Source: a virus
DNA length: 30,510 bases
Direction: 5' to 3' (one strand)
Virus record (IMG/VR): IMGVR_UViG_3300042868_004371
Coordinates: 1 to 30,510 of that record
Shown here: in pieces, positions 8,829 through 20,292 of the stretch
Layout of the letters: the number at the start of each line of letters is the position of its first letter
How positions within the stretch are numbered: position 1 is the stretch's first letter
Made by a program: the position numbers and the translations under genes
Notes under the pieces: generated by a model
Databases searched by the model: none
Told to the model about the DNA's origin: nothing
What the model saw: the letters and a program-made list of their open reading frames with translations, nothing else

Positions 8829-8865
8829 ACGATAAAATGCTAGTAATAGCGCGAAAGGGATATTG

Positions 8866-10266
8866 ATGGCTTATATCTACGATCTGACCGACACTTGGAA
8901 CTCTGGGGGCACGACCTTCAACGGTATCAAGTTGAACGTGACCGACAGTGCGTCGGCCAGCCCCTCCAAGCTTGTCACCCTTCAGACCAACGGAACTGAG
9001 CATTTCAGTATCACTAAGGCTGGCGTTGGCTATGTCAGTGGGAATTTAGGCGTTGGTACGAGTTCGCCGAGTTTCAAACTGGATGTGAGCGGGGACGCTC
9101 ACGCCAGCGGCTCCGTATTTACGGGTAGCGATGCAAATGGATGGGGTCGCCTCTTTAATACGGGTGGGGCGCTTTATTTCCAAGCGGGTTCGCTTAACAG
9201 TGGCAGCGCAACCGCACAGCCGTTCATCTTCACCAATATGTATGGTGGCGCAGAACGTATGCGCATCGACGCCAGCGGCAACGTCGGGATTGGTACGAGT
9301 TCGATTATATCGGAAGCAAGGTTTCAGGTAGTCGGCGGCGCGATTGTTGGGCAGCGCGATACAACAGGCACGTTTGGGGATTTTGATAATCGCGGACAGC
9401 TAATTCTGCGCGGTGCAACAAACGTCGATAAACGGCTTGCGATGGGCGTTGACACATCCGCAGGGACTATGTTTGGCGTAATCCAAGCCATTGAAGCAGG
9501 TGTTTCAACTCGGAACTTGGCGCTTAATCCTGCTGGCGGCAACGTCGGGATTGGTACGAGTTCGCCTACTGCTAAGGTGACAATTTCCCAATTTGCTCCC
9601 AGCGTGGCGGGTGGGCAGTTATTGGTCAAAGACCCCAGTTTTTCTGGTGTGGCTTTGGTGCAAGGTGGTGCTGGTGAAGGCTACCTTTGGAATACCTCCA
9701 ATAACTTCCTGTCAATCGCCACAAACAACGCAGAGCGTATGCGCATCGACAACGCTGGCAGGGTGCTGATTGGGACCACAGCAACCGTTGGCGGAACATG
9801 GTCGAACGAGGTCAAGCAGACCAGTTCTGGCGTCTGGCCGTGGGGACTGAACTGTGTTGACCGTGGTTTGATTGTCCGCAACTCTTCAGCTAGCAGCGGC
9901 TTCTATGCCTACTTCGAGTATAACGGCGGAACCAACAACGGATCGATTTCATGGTCCGGCGGCACAACCTCATACAACACAACCTCAGACTACCGCCTAA
10001 AGAACATCGATGGCCCTTTGACAAACAGCGGCGCTTACATTGACGCACTTAAGCCCGTTGAAGGATCGTGGAAAGCTGACGGAAAACGCTTTATCGGCTT
10101 TTTGGCGCACCAAGTTCAAGAGGTGTCGCAAACGTCTGTGGTTGTGGGCGAGAAGGATGGCAAAGAAATGCAGCAGATGGACTATTCTGCACCTGAACTT
10201 ATTGCCAACCTTATTGCAGAGGTCCAATCACTACGCGCCCGTGTGGCCCAGTTAGAAGGGAATTAA
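8866..10266 (+). CDS. Tail fibre with C-terminal S74 intramolecular chaperone
   Basis: This 466-residue fibre starts at ATG 8866 behind a GCGAAAGGGA site; a TTG one codon earlier is ignored. The body is built from repeats with GNLGVGTSS, GNVGIGTSS (twice) and GRVLIGTT, each spaced by fibre segments, typical of beta-helical trimeric shafts. ERMRIDASG and ERMRIDNAG also recur. The C-terminus is a Peptidase_S74 domain: TTSDYRLKNIDG supplies the Ser374-Lys379 dyad with the S-x4-K spacing of endosialidase-type chaperones, followed by GFLAHQVQEV and a terminal coiled coil (EVQSLRARVAQLEGN). The chaperone trimerises the fibre and then cleaves itself off in front of the Ser. Confidence 0.9.
   Translation: MAYIYDLTDTWNSGGTTFNGIKLNVTDSASASPSKLVTLQTNGTEHFSITKAGVGYVSGNLGVGTSSPSFKLDVSGDAHASGSVFTGSDANGWGRLFNTGGALYFQAGSLNSGSATAQPFIFTNMYGGAERMRIDASGNVGIGTSSIISEARFQVVGGAIVGQRDTTGTFGDFDNRGQLILRGATNVDKRLAMGVDTSAGTMFGVIQAIEAGVSTRNLALNPAGGNVGIGTSSPTAKVTISQFAPSVAGGQLLVKDPSFSGVALVQGGAGEGYLWNTSNNFLSIATNNAERMRIDNAGRVLIGTTATVGGTWSNEVKQTSSGVWPWGLNCVDRGLIVRNSSASSGFYAYFEYNGGTNNGSISWSGGTTSYNTTSDYRLKNIDGPLTNSGAYIDALKPVEGSWKADGKRFIGFLAHQVQEVSQTSVVVGEKDGKEMQQMDYSAPELIANLIAEVQSLRARVAQLEGN
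9277..9564 (+). repeat. 27-base direct repeats inside the fibre gene
   Basis: An identical 27-base sequence encoding GNVGIGTSS occurs at 9277-9303 and 9538-9564. A degenerate version lies near 9040. Exact identity at synonymous positions suggests recent duplication or gene conversion of fibre repeat units. Confidence 0.85.
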
Positions 10267-10268
10267 GA

Positions 10269-10589
10269 ATGACAACGACTTGGAAAGTATCGCAGCTTGA
10301 CTGCTACCCAGAGTTTGAAGGTAACGCTGACATTGTGTTCACCGTGCATTGGTCGGTTGCCGCACAGGACGGCGAGTTCTCAGGTTACAGCTACGGCTCC
10401 CAAGCCCTGACGCTCGATCCAGAGGCGACCTTTGTACCATTTGCCGACCTGACTGAAGCACAGGTCATTGGCTGGGTGCAAGAGTCGATGGGTGAAGATG
10501 CTGTTGCTGCAATTGAAGCAAACCTCGCAACTCAAATCGAGAACGCCAAGAACCCACCAGTTGTCAACCCACCTCTACCTTGGGGCTAA
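10269..10589 (+). CDS. DUF7936-like phage protein
   Basis: This 106-residue protein has the pattern of a common aquatic-phage family: W-K-V at the start, an acidic FEGNADIVFTVHWSV strand, GYSYGSQALTL, a FVPFADLTEAQVIGWVQE motif, a C-terminal helix (VAAIEANLATQIENAK), and a Pro-rich end with PLPWG. Its position directly behind the fibre gene is typical for the family. Its role is unknown; a fibre-assembly or virion accessory function is inferred from gene order. Two bases separate it from the fibre stop. Confidence 0.7.
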   Translation: MTTTWKVSQLDCYPEFEGNADIVFTVHWSVAAQDGEFSGYSYGSQALTLDPEATFVPFADLTEAQVIGWVQESMGEDAVAAIEANLATQIENAKNPPVVNPPLPWG

Positions 10590-10601
10590 AGGAAAAGCAC
10601 A

Positions 10602-10811
10602 ATGGACATCAACACCATAATCACTGTCCTCGGTTTCATCGGCGGTCTCATAACCGTGTGGGTGAACCTTAATAGTCGCCTGACTTTGCTTGAGGCGCGA
10701 CTTGGTTTTGGTGATGAGAAATTCTCCGCCATCGACAAGAAGTTTGACGAGGTGATGATGCACCTCCGTCGCATTGAAGACAAGTTGGACAACAAGGCGG
10801 ATCGAGCATGA
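10602..10811 (+). CDS. Small TM + coiled-coil membrane protein
   Basis: This 69-residue protein starts with an ATG preceded by AAAGGAAAAG. It has a single N-terminal hydrophobic helix (IITVLGFIGGLITVWVNL) and then a heptad-like coiled coil (SRLTLLEARLGFGDEKFSAI, then FDEVMMHLRRIEDKLD). Such proteins commonly occur in lysis cassettes, as antiholin- or spanin-like partners. It ends with TGA overlapped by the next ATG (ATGA), so it is coupled to the secreted Asn-rich protein. Whether it is a holin regulator, a spanin-like subunit or part of a separate envelope function is not decidable from sequence. Confidence 0.7.
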   Translation: MDINTIITVLGFIGGLITVWVNLNSRLTLLEARLGFGDEKFSAIDKKFDEVMMHLRRIEDKLDNKADRA

Positions 10812-11689
10812 AGCGGTTTCTGATAGGTTTTGTAGCCGCCACCAGTGCGGCCTCGATGGTTTTGGCACAGACAGCCCCTGCGCCAGTATCCTATGTTTAT
10901 GATACGACAACCAATAGCACATCTAACAACACCAATAACAATACGTCTACCAGCACCAACACGAACAACAACACATCTACCAGCACATCAACCAACACGA
11001 ACGTCAACCAGAACATTAACTCTGGTACGATGACGAACAACAATAACAACACATCTACCAGCACGAACGTGAACCAGAATATCAATTCTGGCACGATGAC
11101 GAACATCAACCAGAACACCTCGACCAGCACATCGGTGAACTCGAACTCCAACCATAATTACAATAACGACACCAGCAACAGCACCATCGATCAGACCGTC
11201 AACAGCAAGTCCGATAACACCAACCGGAATATCGACACAAGCAATAGCACAGTCAACAGCACGGCGAACAACGTCAACCAGAACAACAACGTCAACGTCA
11301 GCGACAGCAAAAGCTACAGCGAAAGCGTCAATCGGCAGATAATCGACCAGAACATCAAGTCGCCACCACCCAGCGCCATCGCGCCGTCGATGATGTCCTA
11401 CAGCCAAGACCTTTGCACCACCGGGCAATCAGGCGCGGTTCAGACGCAGATTATTGGCTTGTCGGCTGGGCGCACTGTCCGCGATCAGAACTGCGAACGG
11501 ATGAAGCTGTCGAAGACCCTGTACGACATGGGTATGCGCGTGGCTGCTGTAAGCCTCCTGTGCCAAGACATCCGCGTTTTTAAGGCAATGGAGATGGCTG
11601 GCACACCTTGCCCGTTCATGGGTGCAATTGGTGAAGCTGCAACAGCGGCATGGGAAGAAAATGCTGACCGCCGCCCTGACGCAAAATAA
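10808..11689 (+). CDS. Secreted Asn/Thr/Ser-rich repeat protein
   Basis: This 293-residue protein has a signal peptide (KR, hydrophobic AATSAASMVLA, cleavage after AQ-like ALA/Q site near residue 20). Residues about 33-180 are almost only Asn, Thr, Ser, Val and Gln, with NVNQNINSGTMTN repeated. The repeat region is free of Cys and aromatic residues apart from a single Tyr. The C-terminal ~100 residues form a different domain with four Cys (QDLCTTGQSG, RDQNCERMKL, VSLLCQD, GTPCPFMG) and predicted helices, giving two possible disulfides, consistent with periplasmic or outer-surface location. It is coupled upstream (ATGA) and overlaps the downstream secreted protein. The family is not identified by me; adhesin-like or envelope-exposed role is inference. 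Confidence 0.8.
   Translation: MKRFLIGFVAATSAASMVLAQTAPAPVSYVYDTTTNSTSNNTNNNTSTSTNTNNNTSTSTSTNTNVNQNINSGTMTNNNNNTSTSTNVNQNINSGTMTNINQNTSTSTSVNSNSNHNYNNDTSNSTIDQTVNSKSDNTNRNIDTSNSTVNSTANNVNQNNNVNVSDSKSYSESVNRQIIDQNIKSPPPSAIAPSMMSYSQDLCTTGQSGAVQTQIIGLSAGRTVRDQNCERMKLSKTLYDMGMRVAAVSLLCQDIRVFKAMEMAGTPCPFMGAIGEAATAAWEENADRRPDAK
11000..11104 (+). repeat. Two 39-base imperfect repeats in the Asn-rich gene
   Basis: The units 11000-11038 and 11066-11104 encode the same 13 residues (NVNQNINSGTMTN) with a few synonymous differences. Shorter repeats with AACACATCTACCAGCAC occur around 10970 and 11047. The locus is prone to slippage or recombination and could vary in length between relatives. Confidence 0.85.
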
Positions 11690-13190
11690 GCGTCTAATCT
11701 CTTTACTGGCTGCATTGCTGGTCAGCACATCTGCGGCTGCACAGACCTATGAGCCTGTCTTGGTGACTCCGCAAATCCTCGGCGCTCCCACAACGATGAC
11801 GCCGCTAAACTTAGGCGATGATAACACGCGGAACGTGGCCCTTGGCTTTGAGTTCGAGTATTGGGGCCAGACCTTTACTGACGTTTGGGTGTCGAGCAAT
11901 GGCTTTGTGTCGTTCCAGAGCGGCAATCATCTGTGCTGCAACGGCCAGCCCATCGAAATGGCGCAGCGCAACACGATCTATGCCTACTGGTCAGACCTAA
12001 TCAGCTACACGGGCAACCCATATTACCGCCGGGATGATGGCTCGATCTTGTTCGGCTGGTATGGCGTGAACGAGTATGGTACGAACAACAGCAGCACCTT
12101 CGAAATAGGTCTCTTCGCCAACGGCGATATACAACTGAACTTCGGCAATCTGGGTTTCTCCGGTCGGCGCGACTTTACCGCAGGGCTTACTGGCCCAACT
12201 GCGGATGATAACATCTCTCTCTTCTATGGGCGCAATCCACAGTTCCTTCAGAACCAGTCGGGCCTCTTGTCGTGGATTGCGCCTCAGCCAGAGGTTGTGG
12301 CCGTTGACTGCAATGTGACGCCTATGGACCCAACCTGTCCACCAGCCGCCGTAGAAACAATACCTGATCCCGTTGCTGCCATTAATGAAGCCGTGGAGCA
12401 AAGCGTTGAACTTGAGCCAGAGCAGATGGAGCAAGTGCAGGAGGTTGCTGAAACCGCTCTGGAACGGGCAGAGGAGGCTGTGGAGATCGCTGAGGCCGTT
12501 GAGACCGTGGCAATCGCAGAAGAGATTGAAACCGCCGCAGAAGAGGCTGAGGATATAGCAGAGGCCAGCGTTGAAGAAGCCGACGCGGTTGAACGCCTTG
12601 ATCCAGATGAGGTCGCTGCACTGGCGGCAACTGGTGCGGACTTTGAAGACAGCGTGCAACAGCAAGACAGCACAACGCAGGAAGCACAACAGGCTCAGGG
12701 CGGCGCACAAACACAAACACAAAGCAGCTTCGCGCAGGAAACACAGGATGTCTCGGCGACTGGTGCGTTCACCACACAGATGCGTTTCGACAGTTCGTTT
12801 GGCGGATCGTTTTCTCCAACTGTGGTCGTATCGGTGGCACAGAGTGCATCGCCGCTTGACATGGCGATCTCGGCAAGCAGCCCAATGTCTATGTCAAACT
12901 CAGTTGAGACTTTAGGTCTTGGCTCATCCCAAACTACAACCTCTGGTGGAAATCAGCCTCAATCTGACAGTGGAATATCTGAGGGCGAGAGCGAAACAAT
13001 ATCAGCAATGGGTTCCGTACCGGGCTTCGCCGCGTACACACAGGCATCATTGCAAGATAGGGGTGACTTTTATGCAGTTCGTGATATATACAGCCGCCGT
13101 AGGCTGCGAGATGCGAACTTTGAATTGTATCGACTGATGCAGACAAACGATGCCCGTTGGCAGGAGATGGTAGATGAGCAGTACAGATGA
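11661..13190 (+). CDS. Secreted protein with nidogen-like domain and Glu/Ala-rich helix
   Basis: I choose ATG 11661 (GGGAAGAAA upstream). It gives a signal peptide (KRLISLLAALLVSTSAAAQ) that an earlier ATG at 11622 would bury; the result is 509 residues. Residues ~35-210 resemble nidogen-like extracellular beta domains: LGFEFEYWGQTFTDVWVSSN, GFVSFQSG, NTIYAYWSDLI, then TFEIGLFANGDIQLNFG and AGLTG. Residues ~240-330 are a long acidic helix of EEAVEIAEAVE type. Next comes a Gln/Thr/Ser-rich stretch, and finally a charged YSRRRLRDANFELYRLMQ helix. The overlap with the preceding secreted gene (28 bases) implies co-translation. Its role is unknown. Confidence 0.75.
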   Translation: MLTAALTQNKRLISLLAALLVSTSAAAQTYEPVLVTPQILGAPTTMTPLNLGDDNTRNVALGFEFEYWGQTFTDVWVSSNGFVSFQSGNHLCCNGQPIEMAQRNTIYAYWSDLISYTGNPYYRRDDGSILFGWYGVNEYGTNNSSTFEIGLFANGDIQLNFGNLGFSGRRDFTAGLTGPTADDNISLFYGRNPQFLQNQSGLLSWIAPQPEVVAVDCNVTPMDPTCPPAAVETIPDPVAAINEAVEQSVELEPEQMEQVQEVAETALERAEEAVEIAEAVETVAIAEEIETAAEEAEDIAEASVEEADAVERLDPDEVAALAATGADFEDSVQQQDSTTQEAQQAQGGAQTQTQSSFAQETQDVSATGAFTTQMRFDSSFGGSFSPTVVVSVAQSASPLDMAISASSPMSMSNSVETLGLGSSQTTTSGGNQPQSDSGISEGESETISAMGSVPGFAAYTQASLQDRGDFYAVRDIYSRRRLRDANFELYRLMQTNDARWQEMVDEQYR

Positions 13191-13695
13191 GGAGCCAAAG
13201 GTCTCGTTTGACGAGAGCGGCTTCAGCTTTAAGATCGGTGGCCTGAGCAGCGGCAAGATTGCCATTATCTTTGCAGCTTTTTCGACAATCATTGGTGGTC
13301 TATGGGCTGGTTTTCAGGTGTATCAGCAGTTCTTGACCATGAAAGAAGTCACGGCGGCTTATGTGCCGCCTGATCTGTCTAGCATTGAGAACCGAATTTC
13401 TGTGTTGGATGAGCGCGTCACCAGCGTCGAGCGTCTGACCAAGATTAACAGCGAAGCCCTCAACTACATGACTGGCAGCATTTCCAGCAGCGTCAGCGGT
13501 ACGCGCCAGACAGTTGACGCCGTATCGAGCAGCGTGCGCAATAGCGATGCGCAGAATATGGCGATGCAACGGGCTGTGATAGAGCAACTGCGTCAACAAG
13601 ATCAGGAGCAACAGCGCCGGATCAAGCAGCTTGAGGCTGAAACCGCTGAACGTATACAAAAGACGCTGGCGAACCCGCTGGCCGGAAAGGAATGA
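13174..13695 (+). CDS. TM + coiled-coil inner-membrane protein (spanin- or holin-like)
   Basis: This 173-residue protein starts at an ATG inside the end of the nidogen-like gene. It has a polar ~25-residue N-terminus, one TM helix (KIAIIFAAFSTIIGGLWAGF), then a long periplasmic-type coiled coil (LSSIENRISVLDERVTSVE and QLRQQDQEQQRRIKQLEAET). This is the layout of i-spanins, but no lipoprotein o-spanin with a lipobox is seen within or beside it. It is coupled downstream (ATGA-like overlap) to a two-TM protein. A role in the envelope step of lysis is inferred from the architecture and from the endolysin that follows. Confidence 0.65.
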   Translation: MSSTDEEPKVSFDESGFSFKIGGLSSGKIAIIFAAFSTIIGGLWAGFQVYQQFLTMKEVTAAYVPPDLSSIENRISVLDERVTSVERLTKINSEALNYMTGSISSSVSGTRQTVDAVSSSVRNSDAQNMAMQRAVIEQLRQQDQEQQRRIKQLEAETAERIQKTLANPLAGKE

Positions 13696-13697
13696 AC

Positions 13698-14177
13698 ATG
13701 GAAGATAAACTAATGGACGCCCGCATCAAGGCGCTCCTTATGGCTGCTTTGACGATGGCCTTTGTCATTGTCGCAATCACTTGCGCCATGATTGCTGGCT
13801 TGTTCGTATCGAACGAGGTCATCGACAATAAAGATGTGTTCGGCTTGCTGTCCTACGTCATGACTTCGGTTGTTGGCGCTGTGGCTGGCTCCTACGCCAC
13901 GCTGATGGGCATGAAAGGCGAGTTGGTTCCACCGACACCAGAAGACCACAACGATCCTGAGCCAGAAGAGCCTGTTGCGCCTCCACCAGCGCCACAACCT
14001 GAGCCAACACCTGTTGCCGACGCTCCAGAACTGGAATTGACCGATGTGGTCGATGACGATGATGACGATGACATGGAACCTTGGGAAAAGTATCGCGGCG
14101 ACCTTCGCTATGATGCGAACGGCGATGGCGTGGTTGATGAAAACGACTTTCCAGATTGGCGGAGTGCTGGCAAATGA
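13698..14177 (+). CDS. Two-TM holin-like protein with acidic tail and Ca-binding-like loop
   Basis: The start is taken as ATG 13698 because GGAAAGGA lies 7 bases upstream; ATG 13692 is in frame but too close to it. The product is 159 residues. Two hydrophobic helices lie at about residues 12-35 (LLMAALTMAFVIVAITCAMI) and 48-68 (LLSYVMTSVVGAVAGSYATL), as in class II holins. Then comes a Pro/Glu linker (PEPEEPVAPPPAPQPEPTP), a run of seven Asp after VV, and a C-terminal DANGDGVVDENDF that matches an EF-hand or dockerin-like Ca loop (D-x-N-x-D-G). Such a tail is unusual for a holin. It directly precedes the endolysin, with ATGA-type overlap. Confidence 0.65.
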   Translation: MEDKLMDARIKALLMAALTMAFVIVAITCAMIAGLFVSNEVIDNKDVFGLLSYVMTSVVGAVAGSYATLMGMKGELVPPTPEDHNDPEPEEPVAPPPAPQPEPTPVADAPELELTDVVDDDDDDDMEPWEKYRGDLRYDANGDGVVDENDFPDWRSAGK

Positions 14178-14785
14178 GCATGATTGAACTTCAGAAAAAG
14201 ATCGGAGTAACGGCAGATGGTGCGTTCGGTCCGGGGACATTTAAGAAGGCTGCGGCTTTTTATAAATTATCACCTAATCGGGCTGCACATTTCTTTGCTC
14301 AAACTGCGCATGAAAGCGGCAACTTCAAAGCGTTCAGTGAAAACCTGAACTACGGCGCTAAGGGTCTGCGCGGCATCTTCGGCAAATACTTCCCGACTGA
14401 TGCATTGGCTAAGGCTTACGAGCGCCAGCCACAGAAGATTGCTAACCGCGTATATGCCAACCGTATGGCTAATGGTGATGAAGCATCTGGCGATGGCTGG
14501 AAGTTCCGTGGCCGTGGTGCGCTCCAACTCACTGGGAAGGCTAACTACCAAGCGTTCGCTGATTACATTGGTCGCCCAGATGTGATGACGAACCCAGACC
14601 TTGTGGCTGGCGAACTCTGCTTTGAAAGCGCCCTTTGGTTCTTCGACAAGAACAAGCTGTGGGGCATCTGCGACCAAGGCATCAACGATGCTGCGATCCT
14701 TGCACTGACAAAGCGGATCAATGGCGGAACCCACGGTCTCGATGACCGCAAACTCAAAACCAAGAAATATGCTGCTTGGCTCTAA
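14174..14785 (+). CDS. Endolysin, glycoside hydrolase family 19 (chitinase-like)
   Basis: This 203-residue enzyme starts at ATG 14174 overlapping the previous stop. An ATG at 14156 would only add six residues from inside the previous gene. The N-terminus (IELQKKIGVTADGAFGPGTFKKAAAFY) resembles a short peptidoglycan-binding helix. The catalytic domain shows the GH19 motifs: FFAQTAHESGNF with the proposed catalytic Glu after His, RVYANRM, GDGWKFRGRGALQLTGKANY, and the late INGGTHG turn. GH19 endolysins cleave the glycan strand of Gram-negative peptidoglycan. No signal peptide is present, so release depends on a holin. Confidence 0.93.
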   Translation: MSMIELQKKIGVTADGAFGPGTFKKAAAFYKLSPNRAAHFFAQTAHESGNFKAFSENLNYGAKGLRGIFGKYFPTDALAKAYERQPQKIANRVYANRMANGDEASGDGWKFRGRGALQLTGKANYQAFADYIGRPDVMTNPDLVAGELCFESALWFFDKNKLWGICDQGINDAAILALTKRINGGTHGLDDRKLKTKKYAAWL

Positions 14786-14796
14786 GGGGAAGAACA

Positions 14797-14979
14797 ATGG
14801 ACTTTAAAAGCGTATTGAAGAAAGAAATCCAAAAGGCTGCGGTGAAAACTGCAACCGATAAAATCCTACCTATGGATGATGCGCCAAAGCCTCGTGTTGG
14901 GCCAAAAGCCAAGATCGCTGGTGTGCTTGCCTTGATTGGGACACTTGCAACATTGCTTTCTCAATATCTGGGTGGGTAA
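14797..14979 (+). CDS. Small one-TM protein after the endolysin
   Basis: The start is ATG 14797 with AAGGGGAAG 5 bases upstream. The 60-residue product has a positively charged amphipathic N-terminus (FKSVLKKEIQKAAVKTATDK), a Pro/Gly linker and one hydrophobic helix (IAGVLALIGTLATLLSQYL) at the extreme C-terminus. The layout fits a pinholin- or class III-like holin partner, and its place behind the endolysin favours a lysis role. No sequence motif proves it. The GC/codon use matches neighbours. Confidence 0.6.
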   Translation: MDFKSVLKKEIQKAAVKTATDKILPMDDAPKPRVGPKAKIAGVLALIGTLATLLSQYLGG

Positions 14980-14982
14980 TTA

Positions 14983-14997
14983 TTGCCGGAAAGGCAA
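14983..14997 (+). promoter_or_regulatory. Small hairpin containing the ribosome site of the phosphoesterase gene
   Basis: TTGCC (14983-14987) and GGCAA (14993-14997) flank GGAAA. The Shine-Dalgarno-like GGAAAGG overlaps the loop and stem just 7 bases before the ATG at 15002. This could modulate initiation; it is a short stem, so the effect may be weak. Confidence 0.4.
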
Positions 14998-15001
14998 GTA
15001 A

Positions 15002-16180
15002 ATGCCATCTACTATAAACTTCGACGAGGGGCTGTATAAATATTGCACCCCTCGTCAACGCGAAGTCTTGGAAGCCATAGAACGCCTTGGCAGTGCTAGG
15101 GCGGCATCCCTTGAATTGGGTATGAACATAGGTGGCGCAAGCGAGACCTATACCGCTGTAAAGCGCAAGGCTGCAAAGTTCGGCTATGCGCCAGAACATG
15201 ACTTTACTCGGCCCGTGCCTGATGGTTTCATTGCCAAGGGCGTCAGCACTTACTACAACGCCGAAGGCAAGCCATCTGGGCAATGGATAAAAGCATCACT
15301 TAGCCATCAGGCTCTCGTGGACGCCATGAGAGAGGCAATCGATGGCTTTAAGGACGAGATACCGCCAGCGGTATCAGTCGTGGCCCCAGCGGCTTCTGAC
15401 GAGCATCTGTGCAATCTCTACACATTCACCGACTATCACCTTGGCATGTTGGCGTGGCATAAGGAGGGTGGTTCTGACTGGAATATTTCCATTGCAGAGA
15501 AAACTATTCTGGCTGCGCTGATACAGATGGTCAATCAAAGCCCTACTGCACATACAGCGGTACTCAATATCCAAGGCGATTTCTTGCATACCGACGGCAA
15601 GACACCTGTAACACCAGCATCAAAGCACGTTCTGGATGCCGACAGCCGCTTTCCTAAGATACGCCGCTCCGCGATCCGGATCATACGATCATTAGTGGCG
15701 ATATGTTTGCAACGCCATCAAGAAGTGCGTTTGATTATCGCTGAGGGAAACCACGACGAGGAAAGTGCTGGCTGGCTGGCTGACCTGTTCTCTGTTCATT
15801 ACGAAGAAGAGCCTCGCGTCGCTGTCAACGATAGCGTTCTGCCATTCTATGTGTTTGAGTGGGGAACTACCATGCTGGGCATCCATCATGGTCACAAGGT
15901 CAAGAACGAGAGCCTACCACTGCTTTTTGCGGCACAGTTCCCGCAAGCGTGGGGCCGAACAACTCGGCGCGAGATACACTGCGGCCACAGACACCACAGA
16001 GATGAAAAAGAGTATAATGGTGTGACAGTTGTGCAACACCCCACGCTGGCGGCGCGTGACGCCTATGCTGCGCGTGGTGGTTGGATTGCGGATCGAGCGG
16101 CTTGGGCTATCACATATCATAAGAAATATGGCGCTGTTGGTCGCGTTATGATAACGACTGAGATGTTAGATGTTTCTTAA
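15002..16180 (+). CDS. Winged-helix + calcineurin-like metallophosphoesterase
   Basis: This 392-residue protein has an N-terminal helix-turn-helix (residues ~15-60: TPRQREVLEAIERLGSARAA, then YTAVKRKAAKFG). A linker precedes the calcineurin-type catalytic domain. The five metal-binding motifs are all present: D144-x-H146 (TDYHLG), G192-D193 (QGDF), GNHD at 249-252, H296-GH (HHGH), and GHRH at 328-331. The enzyme is therefore likely to be active as a phosphodiesterase or nuclease on DNA, RNA or nucleotides. Similar HTH-phosphoesterase proteins occur in many phages, where their substrate is not known. It is the last rightward gene before a convergent terminator. Confidence 0.88.
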   Translation: MPSTINFDEGLYKYCTPRQREVLEAIERLGSARAASLELGMNIGGASETYTAVKRKAAKFGYAPEHDFTRPVPDGFIAKGVSTYYNAEGKPSGQWIKASLSHQALVDAMREAIDGFKDEIPPAVSVVAPAASDEHLCNLYTFTDYHLGMLAWHKEGGSDWNISIAEKTILAALIQMVNQSPTAHTAVLNIQGDFLHTDGKTPVTPASKHVLDADSRFPKIRRSAIRIIRSLVAICLQRHQEVRLIIAEGNHDEESAGWLADLFSVHYEEEPRVAVNDSVLPFYVFEWGTTMLGIHHGHKVKNESLPLLFAAQFPQAWGRTTRREIHCGHRHHRDEKEYNGVTVVQHPTLAARDAYAARGGWIADRAAWAITYHKKYGAVGRVMITTEMLDVS

Positions 16181-18088: not shown

Positions 18089-19673
18089 TTTCCCACTCCC
18101 TTTTTATAACCCTATAATATTTGCCATCGCGGCGGAACGTAATGTAACTTGGTGGCCTCCCAAGGTTCAGCGAATCTGCCCAATCATCTAAAGAGTCGCC
18201 CGGCTCGAACTGAATACCAGCCTTTCTTGCAATGTTCACAACATTTGTAATCGCCCTCTGCCCAGCATAACCGTCATGGGTCACAGGCAAATATTCAACT
18301 ACGCTCGGATCAGATAACCCACCATAATAGGAAACGGCAAGCATTTCTTTGCCGGACGCTCGGCTAACGTGCTTGCGCCAATTCCAACCCGTCAGTTCCA
18401 TCTCCTCTGCATCCAAGCCCATAATGTCATCATTACGAAGTTTAAGCTGTACAGGTTCCGGTACAGGAAATGGCTCACCGCAAGCCGGACATTCCTTGGC
18501 GCTGATGTGGACAAGTTCATGGCAATTTTCACAAGCCTTTGTAGGAGCATCGCCATCTCCCTCGCCGTCCTTGCGGCTGGGTGGCTGGACGTTGGTAATA
18601 GGACCGTGCATTTGCACCACGCCAGCAAAGTCAAGCACAAGGCAATGGTCGGTGTGGTCTTTGATCCGCATCCCGCGCCCAGCCATTTGGACATAAAGGC
18701 TCGGACTCATCGTTGGGCGCAGCATAACAATCAAGTCTATATTCGGTGCGTCAAAGCCAGTCGTAAGGACGTTGGCGTTAGTCAGCGCCCTGATCTTGCC
18801 AGCCTTAAAGTCATCCAATATGCGCTGCCGCTCCGCCTTTGGCGTTTCCCCTGTGATGCAAGCTGATGTTATGCCTCTGGCTGACAGCACTTCGGCAACA
18901 TCCTCCGCGTGCGCCACGCCAGTGCAAAAGAATAGCCACGACTTACAATCCTCGGCCAGTTCAATCACCTCATCCACGACCCTGTAATTATTGTCGGATG
19001 TGTTGACCTTCGCCTGTAATTCGCTCTCGATGAACTCACCGCCGCGCTTATGCACGCCAGCCGTGTCGAGAGTATATTTGGTTATCTTGCTGCGCAGTAT
19101 CGATAGGTGGCCTTTGCTAATCAACTCTTCGATACCAACTGGCTGGAGCAGATCGTGAAATAGCGCCGGGGCATCTGTGATTAACCCGTGACCCAAACGA
19201 TATGGCGTGGCCGTCAAGCCAATCACCCTCAAGTTTGGATTAATCTTTTTCAGACCAGCAAGGAAGGTGCGGTATCCGCCCTCATTTTTGTGACTGACCA
19301 AATGGCACTCATCGATAATGCAAAGGTCGATGAAGCCAACCTCTTCGGCCTTTGTCCTGATCGACTGAATCCCCGCGAAGGTGATTGGCTCACCAAGCTG
19401 CTTCAGCCCCAAGCCAGCGGAGTAAATGCCCATTGGCGCGTTGGGCCAGTGCTGGCGCATCTTCTCTGCGTTCTGGCTAATCAGTTCCTTAACGTGCGTC
19501 AGCATAAGCACGCGGGTCTCAGGCCACTTTTGCAGTGCGTCCTTGCAAAGCGCAGCAACAATGTGGCTCTTGCCGGAGCCTGTTGGCAGCACCAAGCATG
19601 GATTGCCCTCATTGCCATCGCTGAACCATTGAAGCAGTTGCTCGATGGAACGCGCCTGATAATCACGAAGCAT
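18081..19673 (-). CDS. SF2 DNA helicase (DEAD/DEAH-type) with C-terminal zinc ribbon
   Basis: This 530-residue helicase has motif I PTGSGKS (30-36), motif II DECH (121-124), motif III TATP (154-157), motif VI QMAGRGMR near residue 330, and in between a GFDAPN segment typical of RecG/UvrB/Rad25-like DNA translocases. After ~380 there is a ribbon, CENCHELVHISAKECPACGE, and a ~110-residue C-terminal domain. The protein probably unwinds or translocates on dsDNA in recombination or replication restart. Its start overlaps the end of the Mom-like gene by 11 bases. Such helicases often stand next to VRR-NUC nucleases in phages. Confidence 0.9.
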   Translation of the reverse strand: MLRDYQARSIEQLLQWFSDGNEGNPCLVLPTGSGKSHIVAALCKDALQKWPETRVLMLTHVKELISQNAEKMRQHWPNAPMGIYSAGLGLKQLGEPITFAGIQSIRTKAEEVGFIDLCIIDECHLVSHKNEGGYRTFLAGLKKINPNLRVIGLTATPYRLGHGLITDAPALFHDLLQPVGIEELISKGHLSILRSKITKYTLDTAGVHKRGGEFIESELQAKVNTSDNNYRVVDEVIELAEDCKSWLFFCTGVAHAEDVAEVLSARGITSACITGETPKAERQRILDDFKAGKIRALTNANVLTTGFDAPNIDLIVMLRPTMSPSLYVQMAGRGMRIKDHTDHCLVLDFAGVVQMHGPITNVQPPSRKDGEGDGDAPTKACENCHELVHISAKECPACGEPFPVPEPVQLKLRNDDIMGLDAEEMELTGWNWRKHVSRASGKEMLAVSYYGGLSDPSVVEYLPVTHDGYAGQRAITNVVNIARKAGIQFEPGDSLDDWADSLNLGRPPSYITFRRDGKYYRVIKREWENA

Positions 19674-20292
19674 TATACTGGCCCTTCGGATAAGGTGTAA
19701 TCGGATATTTTATTTTACCGATAGACATAGACCTAAACTTTTTGCTTCCGCAGACATAAATGTAGCGATGCTTTCGTGATCGCGGGACCAGATAAAAGTC
19801 ATCCCCGTAATAATCGCGCATTGCTTTAGCCCTATTTGGTGCACCCCTAAATTTATCTGAAATTGTCTGGCCATGCAGATGCTCAAGACCCTTCACCTTC
19901 CAGTCTGTTCTCTTTGCAGAAAGGCCGCAATACAAAAAATTACAAGCCTGATAAACATATCCGACATGACCTTGCTCTATATCTGCAAAGCTTACAACAA
20001 TCTTATCTCCAAGCATTTTCAAAGATTTAGAAACTAAAATTGAGGCTTCGTTTTTAATATTATCCTTTAAGCAAAGCCTGTTCAATTCTAAAACATTAGC
20101 GGACATTTCAATTCCAGCCACGCCCGATCTCAAAGTGCATGAGGCTGGTGTTCCGTATGTGCATACTCCGACAAGAAGCCCATCCCTATAGAGACCAAAA
20201 GCGTAGCTTATTGAAGGCCATCTTTTTGCATAATGGATGCCTATGACAAATGGTTCGCAGTCTGCACGAGATATTTTCTTTACTTCGTACAT
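19663..20292 (-). CDS. Mom-like DNA modification protein (GNAT-fold)
   Basis: This 209-residue protein matches the Mu Mom family, which modifies adenine N6 to block restriction. Visible motifs are GIHYAKRWP (His20-Tyr21), YAFGLYRDG, VGVCTYGTPAS, LELNRLCL (69-75), NEASILVSKSL, and VSFADIEQGHVGYVYQACNF (Asp104), the HY...ELNRL...S...AD...GYVYQA.NF pattern that carries most conserved Mom residues. It ends in FYLVPRSRKHRYIYVCG. Codons are richer in AGA, AGG and ATA than in neighbouring genes, which suggests later acquisition. It overlaps the nuclease start (TAATG) and the helicase. Whether this copy makes N6-carbamoylmethyladenine is unproved. Confidence 0.8.
   Translation of the reverse strand: MYEVKKISRADCEPFVIGIHYAKRWPSISYAFGLYRDGLLVGVCTYGTPASCTLRSGVAGIEMSANVLELNRLCLKDNIKNEASILVSKSLKMLGDKIVVSFADIEQGHVGYVYQACNFLYCGLSAKRTDWKVKGLEHLHGQTISDKFRGAPNRAKAMRDYYGDDFYLVPRSRKHRYIYVCGSKKFRSMSIGKIKYPITPYPKGQYNAS

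Follow-up and report, generated by a model that had tools for sequence, protein, structure and literature searches.

Two-component spanins such as Rz/Rz1 and T4 PseT.3/PseT.2 act late, are encoded near the endolysin, and combine an inner-membrane helix and a periplasmic coiled coil with exported partner(s) and cysteines. T4 Spackle (gp61.3), a small exported periplasmic protein with cysteines and helices, acts in superinfection exclusion, and T5 Llp, a single lipoprotein, works from inside FhuA. Pelagiphages carry a curli (T8SS) module comprising CsgG, CsgF, CsgA/B, FecR and AC, and "sibling capture" has been proposed for such phage-encoded curli (PMC9599517). The locus described here belongs to a freshwater-type phage and lies in a 30.5 kb linear IMG/VR virus record, the whole of which is referred to as the window, and centers on three consecutive genes, g2, g3 and g4, encoding components A, B and C.

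This trio shares with two-component spanins all of the traits listed above, but it has no lipobox partner and instead two soluble exported partners, an adhesin-type head and a C-terminal NPL tail. Component A resembles Spackle in its size class, predicted export, cysteines and helices; however, it has four cysteines as opposed to one disulfide, belongs to a three-gene module and has no tail-lysozyme target in evidence. Like pelagiphage curli (PMC9599517), the trio is an exported multi-gene envelope module with N-rich repeats that occurs across SAR11 phage families, but the gene set differs and the length of the spacer in A is dispensable. The likeness to T5 Llp and similar receptor blockers, i.e., exported phage proteins acting on an envelope receptor, is by analogy, as the trio comprises three genes and is non-lipidated. 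The head of B has a NIDO-type domain in common with Flavobacterium RemA, a cellular adhesin of 1436 residues; the relation is limited to this head, the remainder of B being phage-specific. The literature searched on nidogen, spackle, cyanophage spore-coat and related subjects yielded no description of the module, and the annotations of all three families are either "hypothetical" or wrong. Judged from sequence, the gene module thus appears to be new, with only the head of B falling into a known domain family; this novelty refers to the module, for which a mechanism is proposed below.

Several identities were considered and rejected. Spanin identity would call for an outer-membrane lipobox lipoprotein, joined in the unimolecular type to a C-terminal TM segment, and the lipobox scan of the window returned only spurious embedded or antisense ORFs; scans of whole genomes returned none in HTVC202P and two antisense ORFs in AP013540, and true spanins coexist with the trio in other phages. 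The other spanin hallmark, an N-terminal transmembrane helix followed by a periplasmic coiled coil, is predicted for C. The lack of a recognized spanin is by itself weak evidence because none was found in 91 of 677 phages (Kongari et al., PMC6139136). The match of A to the T4 Spackle family (PF25676) reached 13.5 bits against a cut-off of 27 in one of 13 members (E = 0.12), i.e., chance level, and the Spackle structure was absent among the 50 matches listed in a Foldseek search of the Cys4 model against the PDB. CsgG, CsgF and curlin domains were all absent from the ten genes at 8863-16180 (Pfam, E ≤ 1), which rejects a curli/T8SS identity.

The window carries siphovirus tail genes (head closure, tail terminator, two major tail proteins, tape measure, distal tail and a J-like fiber). 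Two tandem genes at 1539-1937 and 1949-2341 both match the major tail protein family phrog_1407, and a Mom-like DNA modification protein (phrog_1384, 8.8e-53) is encoded on the minus strand at 19663-20292, with a helicase on one side and a Cas4-type exonuclease on the other. Two fiber-type genes and a DUF7936 gene are followed by g1-g5, the GH19 endolysin and a small tail-anchored protein (g7). The first-pass annotation had described five overlapping ORFs at 10602-14177 in a chain ending at the endolysin, with TM/coiled-coil proteins in first and fourth place and a two-TM protein last. All five are present at the stated place, with one N-terminal membrane segment each in g1 and g4 and two in g5 (Table 1). 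Overlaps measure 4 bp (g1/g2), 29 bp (g2/g3), 17 bp (g3/g4) and 4 bp (g4/g5); g5 overlaps the endolysin by 4 bp if the latter starts at ATG 14174, the likely start, and by 22 bp if it starts at TTG 14156. The start of g3 is most likely ATG 11661 and not GTG 11622, because the signal-peptide-like stretch LISLLAALLVSTSAAAQ comes directly after position 11661.

Table 1 Features of the gene chain and its 3' neighbors in the window
Feature	Position	Strand	Description
g1	10602..10811	+	69 aa; N-terminal membrane helix and coiled coil; clade companion
g2 (component A)	10808..11689	+	Sec signal peptide, N/T/S-rich spacer of variable length, C-terminal Cys4 domain
Cys4 domain of A	11354..11686	+	About residues 183-293
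g3 (component B)	11661..13190	+	Sec signal peptide, NIDO-like head (about 11736-12314), acidic middle, conserved C-terminal tail (last ~55 residues)
g4 (component C)	13174..13695	+	N-terminal membrane helix, coiled coil, C-terminal NPL motif
g5	13692..14177	+	Two membrane helices, acidic tail, C-terminal EF-hand-type loop DANGDGVVDEND
Endolysin	14174..14785	+	GH19-type, without signal peptide; PF00182 1.2e-8, phrog_181 1e-60
g7	14797..14979	+	60 aa; C-terminal membrane helix; 3' of the endolysin in 61/81 loci

A scan with g3 retrieved 111 relatives, and gene order was examined at 81 loci, the window included as one. Among these, g3 was present at 81, g4 and g5 at 77 each, g2 and the endolysin at 74 each, g1 at 63 and g7 at 61; the order was the same throughout, and most absences reflected contig ends or thresholds. 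Absence of this gene order from other phages had been named beforehand as grounds for abandoning the module, but more than 70 of 80 related IMG/VR contigs retain g1-g5-endolysin in this order, and the claim stands. In median identity, the Cys4 domain of g2 (92%) and g4 (91%) exceeded the endolysin (84%); within g3, the head (90%) and the tail (88%) were better conserved than the acidic middle (46%). Together with dN/dS values of 0.04-0.16 in every region of g1-g5, these identities mark the five ORFs as genuine genes subject to strong constraint, which for several exceeds that on the endolysin. The proposal of a five-gene envelope module nevertheless needs revision: the data support a conserved envelope system, but conservation reaches deep only for g2-g3-g4, and g1 and g5 are companions within the clade.

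The description of g2 as an Asn/Thr/Ser-rich Cys4 protein with a signal peptide was confirmed, with cysteines at residues 203, 229, 252 and 268. All 13 phages and all 33 aligned members compared have these four residues, an invariance that spans SAR11, Roseobacter and freshwater phages, and signal-peptide-type N-termini are present even in very divergent members. At least 597 confirmed relatives of A were recovered from IMG/VR by profile scan; A also matches phrog_20531, a family of unknown function (E = 1.3e-11 for the window protein and 7.9e-14 for that of locus L183). The model of the Cys4 domain comprises a beta hairpin and four helices at moderate confidence (mean pLDDT 74, hairpin weak); a Foldseek search of it against the PDB gave no match at E < 0.001, and its matches in BFVD were family members only. 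The stretch ahead of the domain ranges from about 41 to more than 290 residues between members while the size of the Cys4 domain is fixed, which makes a functional amyloid core in the N/T/S region unlikely.

For component B, the designation "nidogen-like" holds at the level of the family, as 13 of 25 aligned heads match the NIDO profile PF06119 at E ≤ 1 (best 4.6e-5) and a profile of B heads matches the adhesin RemA (PDB 8gl6) at E = 7e-15; the window copy alone has no Pfam match. The model of the head is all-beta (pLDDT 82.5) and found no PDB fold match at E < 0.001, so that the identity of the head rests on sequence. Direct evidence for the exchange of heads and tails comes from three phages: the B proteins of HTVC023P and HTVC033P are similar solely in the C-terminal tail, whereas those of HTVC033P and Votkovvirus are similar in the head. 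Of 73 B proteins, several truncated at contig ends, 39 carry the tail motif, [WF]Y...[IV]Y...DN..., within their last 65 residues, and it occurs nowhere else in the 73. Heads are of the NIDO type in most phages and other domains in the remainder, including several pelagiphages in which the annotated head resembles a carbohydrate-binding domain. In locus L162 the head is almost absent (B of 225 aa), and a binding head is therefore not always needed. Signal peptides of B in some relatives match an LLAC-type lipobox, which is not conserved. Direct tblastn searches with B gave no matches in the annotated phage collection, and B was reached there via the neighbors of A.

Component C has a predicted transmembrane segment at residues 29-47 followed by a coiled-coil-type region, and its C-terminus carries an invariant N-P and a nearly invariant L. 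Identity across the clade loci is 87-99%. In the wider family conservation is limited to NPL, which made a profile scan with C unproductive; as a query, C matched HTVC115P only. Linkage of C to A was assessed at the 55 loci where sequence extends 2.6 kb or more past A: C lies downstream of A at 46 of them by strict rules and at seven more by relaxed ones (53/55), and the same DNA contains two C-type ORFs elsewhere. A and C are co-inherited. Two Roseobacter phage genes, L086:3292-3873 (CRP-207, "putative lysozyme") and L087:7165-7587 (CRP-810, "lysozyme"), correspond to component C; with a transmembrane segment, coiled coil and NPL present, both lysozyme labels are apparently mis-annotations.

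Searches with the Cys4 domain reached Pelagibacter and Roseobacter phages, Votkovvirus of the Autographiviridae and spring-water phages, and in most of these the neighbors of A are B, a long exported protein, and C, a coiled-coil protein with a TM helix at its N-terminus and NPL at its end. SAR11 and Roseobacter phages with the trio include podo-, myo- and siphovirus types; hundreds of uncultured aquatic phages, along with isolates whose hosts are the most abundant bacteria of the ocean, have it in the same order. Among about 50,700 annotated phage records A is present in only 11, and the module is therefore mainly one of uncultured aquatic phages. The MAG matches L173-L191, drawn from bacterial collections, probably stem from phage contigs that were binned along, and host assignment made no use of them. 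In HTVC202P the trio lies 5' of the terminase and about 19 kb from the M15 endolysin; HTVC111P, HTVC112P and HTVC026P, whose TerL proteins are 95-81% identical to that of HTVC202P, lack it, and the trio is therefore accessory in this group. Many marine contigs carry spanin pairs near the trio, often together with a GH24 lysozyme (trio and spanin pair together in L106-L109, L114, L115, L123, L132 and others). Three extra small secreted proteins without Pfam match are encoded between B and C at L183:4971-6234 and L187:9276-10736; one begins HAHEMTPxYPKL, and one is pilin/spore-coat-U-like by eye.

As for the clade companions, g1 matches the holin family phrog_1296 weakly (E = 0.01) and may be holin-like or an accessory protein. 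No holin profile match was found for g5; its two transmembrane segments and its position adjoining a signal-less endolysin are those of a candidate holin or Ca2+-responsive membrane protein. Its EF-hand tail has a dN/dS of 0.044, and EF-hand ORFs, mostly with membrane segments, are found near A in other phages too. EF-hand-type loops close to the trio were seen at the C-terminus of g5 in the window, at L183:6752-7084, L086:3870-4226 and L127:3952-4161, and in L103, L104, L133 and L157; eleven lie on the plus strand and one on the minus strand, mostly in small membrane proteins. A link through Ca2+ to the control of lysis or the envelope is possible.

We tentatively lean towards the trio forming a complex, exported via Sec and anchored by C, with which the phage changes the infected cell's envelope through receptor masking or superinfection exclusion. 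The three components would be produced late in infection. C would be held in the inner membrane by its N-terminal helix, with the coiled coil ending in NPL reaching into the periplasm, and A and B would be exported via Sec. The disulfide-bonded Cys4 domain of A, on its flexible spacer, and the C-terminal tail of B would form the constant part that assembles with C, while the N-terminal head of B would be the exchangeable binding part. The complex would most likely bind a host surface or periplasmic ligand, e.g., a receptor or an envelope glycan, and the envelope of the doomed cell would be changed so that receptors are masked or blocked, which would guard against superinfection and keep progeny from being lost to cell debris, in a manner similar to that of T5 Llp. 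A constant tail of B with an exchangeable head related to a cell-surface adhesin, the co-inheritance of A and C, the invariant cysteine pattern, purifying selection throughout, the accessory status of the trio in the HTVC202P group and its coexistence with spanin pairs in several phages all agree with such a function. However, its placement in the lysis region, chained to the endolysin in the window's clade and several others, would suit lysis equally, the nearly headless B of L162 fits poorly, the strong conservation of the head within the clade gives no sign of an arms race, and most described exclusion proteins are single and early.

A somewhat doubtful, though still serious, possibility is that A, B and C bridge the periplasm and help rupture the outer membrane after endolysin action, as an Rz/Rz1 analog without a lipoprotein. 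The trio always adjoins the endolysin in the window's clade, an M15 peptidase gene directly follows C in HTVC023P, EF-hand/2TM genes are often close by and the architecture of C is i-spanin-like; moreover, no o-spanin candidate was found in the window or in the whole AP013540 and HTVC202P genomes. In T7, Rz/Rz1 occupy the interval between the holin-like gene and the terminase genes, which is where the trio sits in the T7-like Votkovvirus (AP013540). Yet spanin pairs accompany the trio elsewhere, the trio of HTVC202P is remote from the endolysin and missing from near relatives, and its absence is not offset by spanins, since lipoproteins are missing as well from related pelagiphage regions that have no trio. 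Membrane rupture, furthermore, needs no adhesin-type exchangeable head, and an exported, C-anchored complex with such a head fits envelope modification better than a membrane-rupture device. Of the options raised in the first-pass annotation, the periplasm-spanning lysis complex, if of the spanin type, is thus weakened by the missing lipobox protein in the window, the spanins of other trio phages and the HTVC202P relatives without the trio, whereas a superinfection block or a change in surface or adhesion better suits a swappable adhesin-type head. Display of B heads outside the infected cell, where they would stick to sibling cells or particles, nonetheless appears decidedly unlikely. RemA-like and carbohydrate-binding-like heads, the long N/T/S-rich spacer, the extra small secreted proteins in L183 and L187 and the fact that curli are already known from phages of the same hosts (PMC9599517) would agree with adhesion or aggregation, but the module lacks an outer-membrane pore, autotransporter or lipid anchor as well as curli domains, and there is no sign of anything leaving the periplasm. 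It is highly improbable that A and B are virion proteins, i.e., fibers or decoration with misleading signal-like N-termini: despite their location 3' of tail-fiber genes and modular heads reminiscent of fiber tips, signal-peptide-type N-termini in divergent members, paired invariant cysteines and an obligate membrane-protein neighbor point to export.

Modification of the envelope might also take a more elaborate form, which we consider unlikely, in which A-B-C is an undescribed envelope machine: amphipathic hairpins of A would oligomerize, possibly in the outer membrane, C would anchor the assembly at the inner membrane, and interchangeable B heads would be displayed to the periplasm or the outside, with modular exchange among phages of abundant aquatic bacteria serving to control binding or entry to the infected cell. 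Even if the trio is an exclusion device, it would be a new kind, with three exported or membrane parts. Recurrence of an exported system in podo-, myo- and siphoviruses that is yet accessory among close relatives may point to a common means of changing infected-cell envelopes in aquatic phages.

HTVC202P and HTVC111P form a cultured pair with and without the trio. At the site corresponding to the HTVC202P trio, the relatives that lack it carry one to several small TM or Cys-containing ORFs. In HTVC111P (L257:2098-2902) and HTVC026P (L259:2392-3300), these comprise another TM/coiled-coil protein and small Cys-containing proteins of exported type, possibly an alternative module with the same purpose. 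In a further locus, a phage protein resembling the TonB C-terminus by eye is encoded about 4 kb downstream of the trio (L152:10650-11249).
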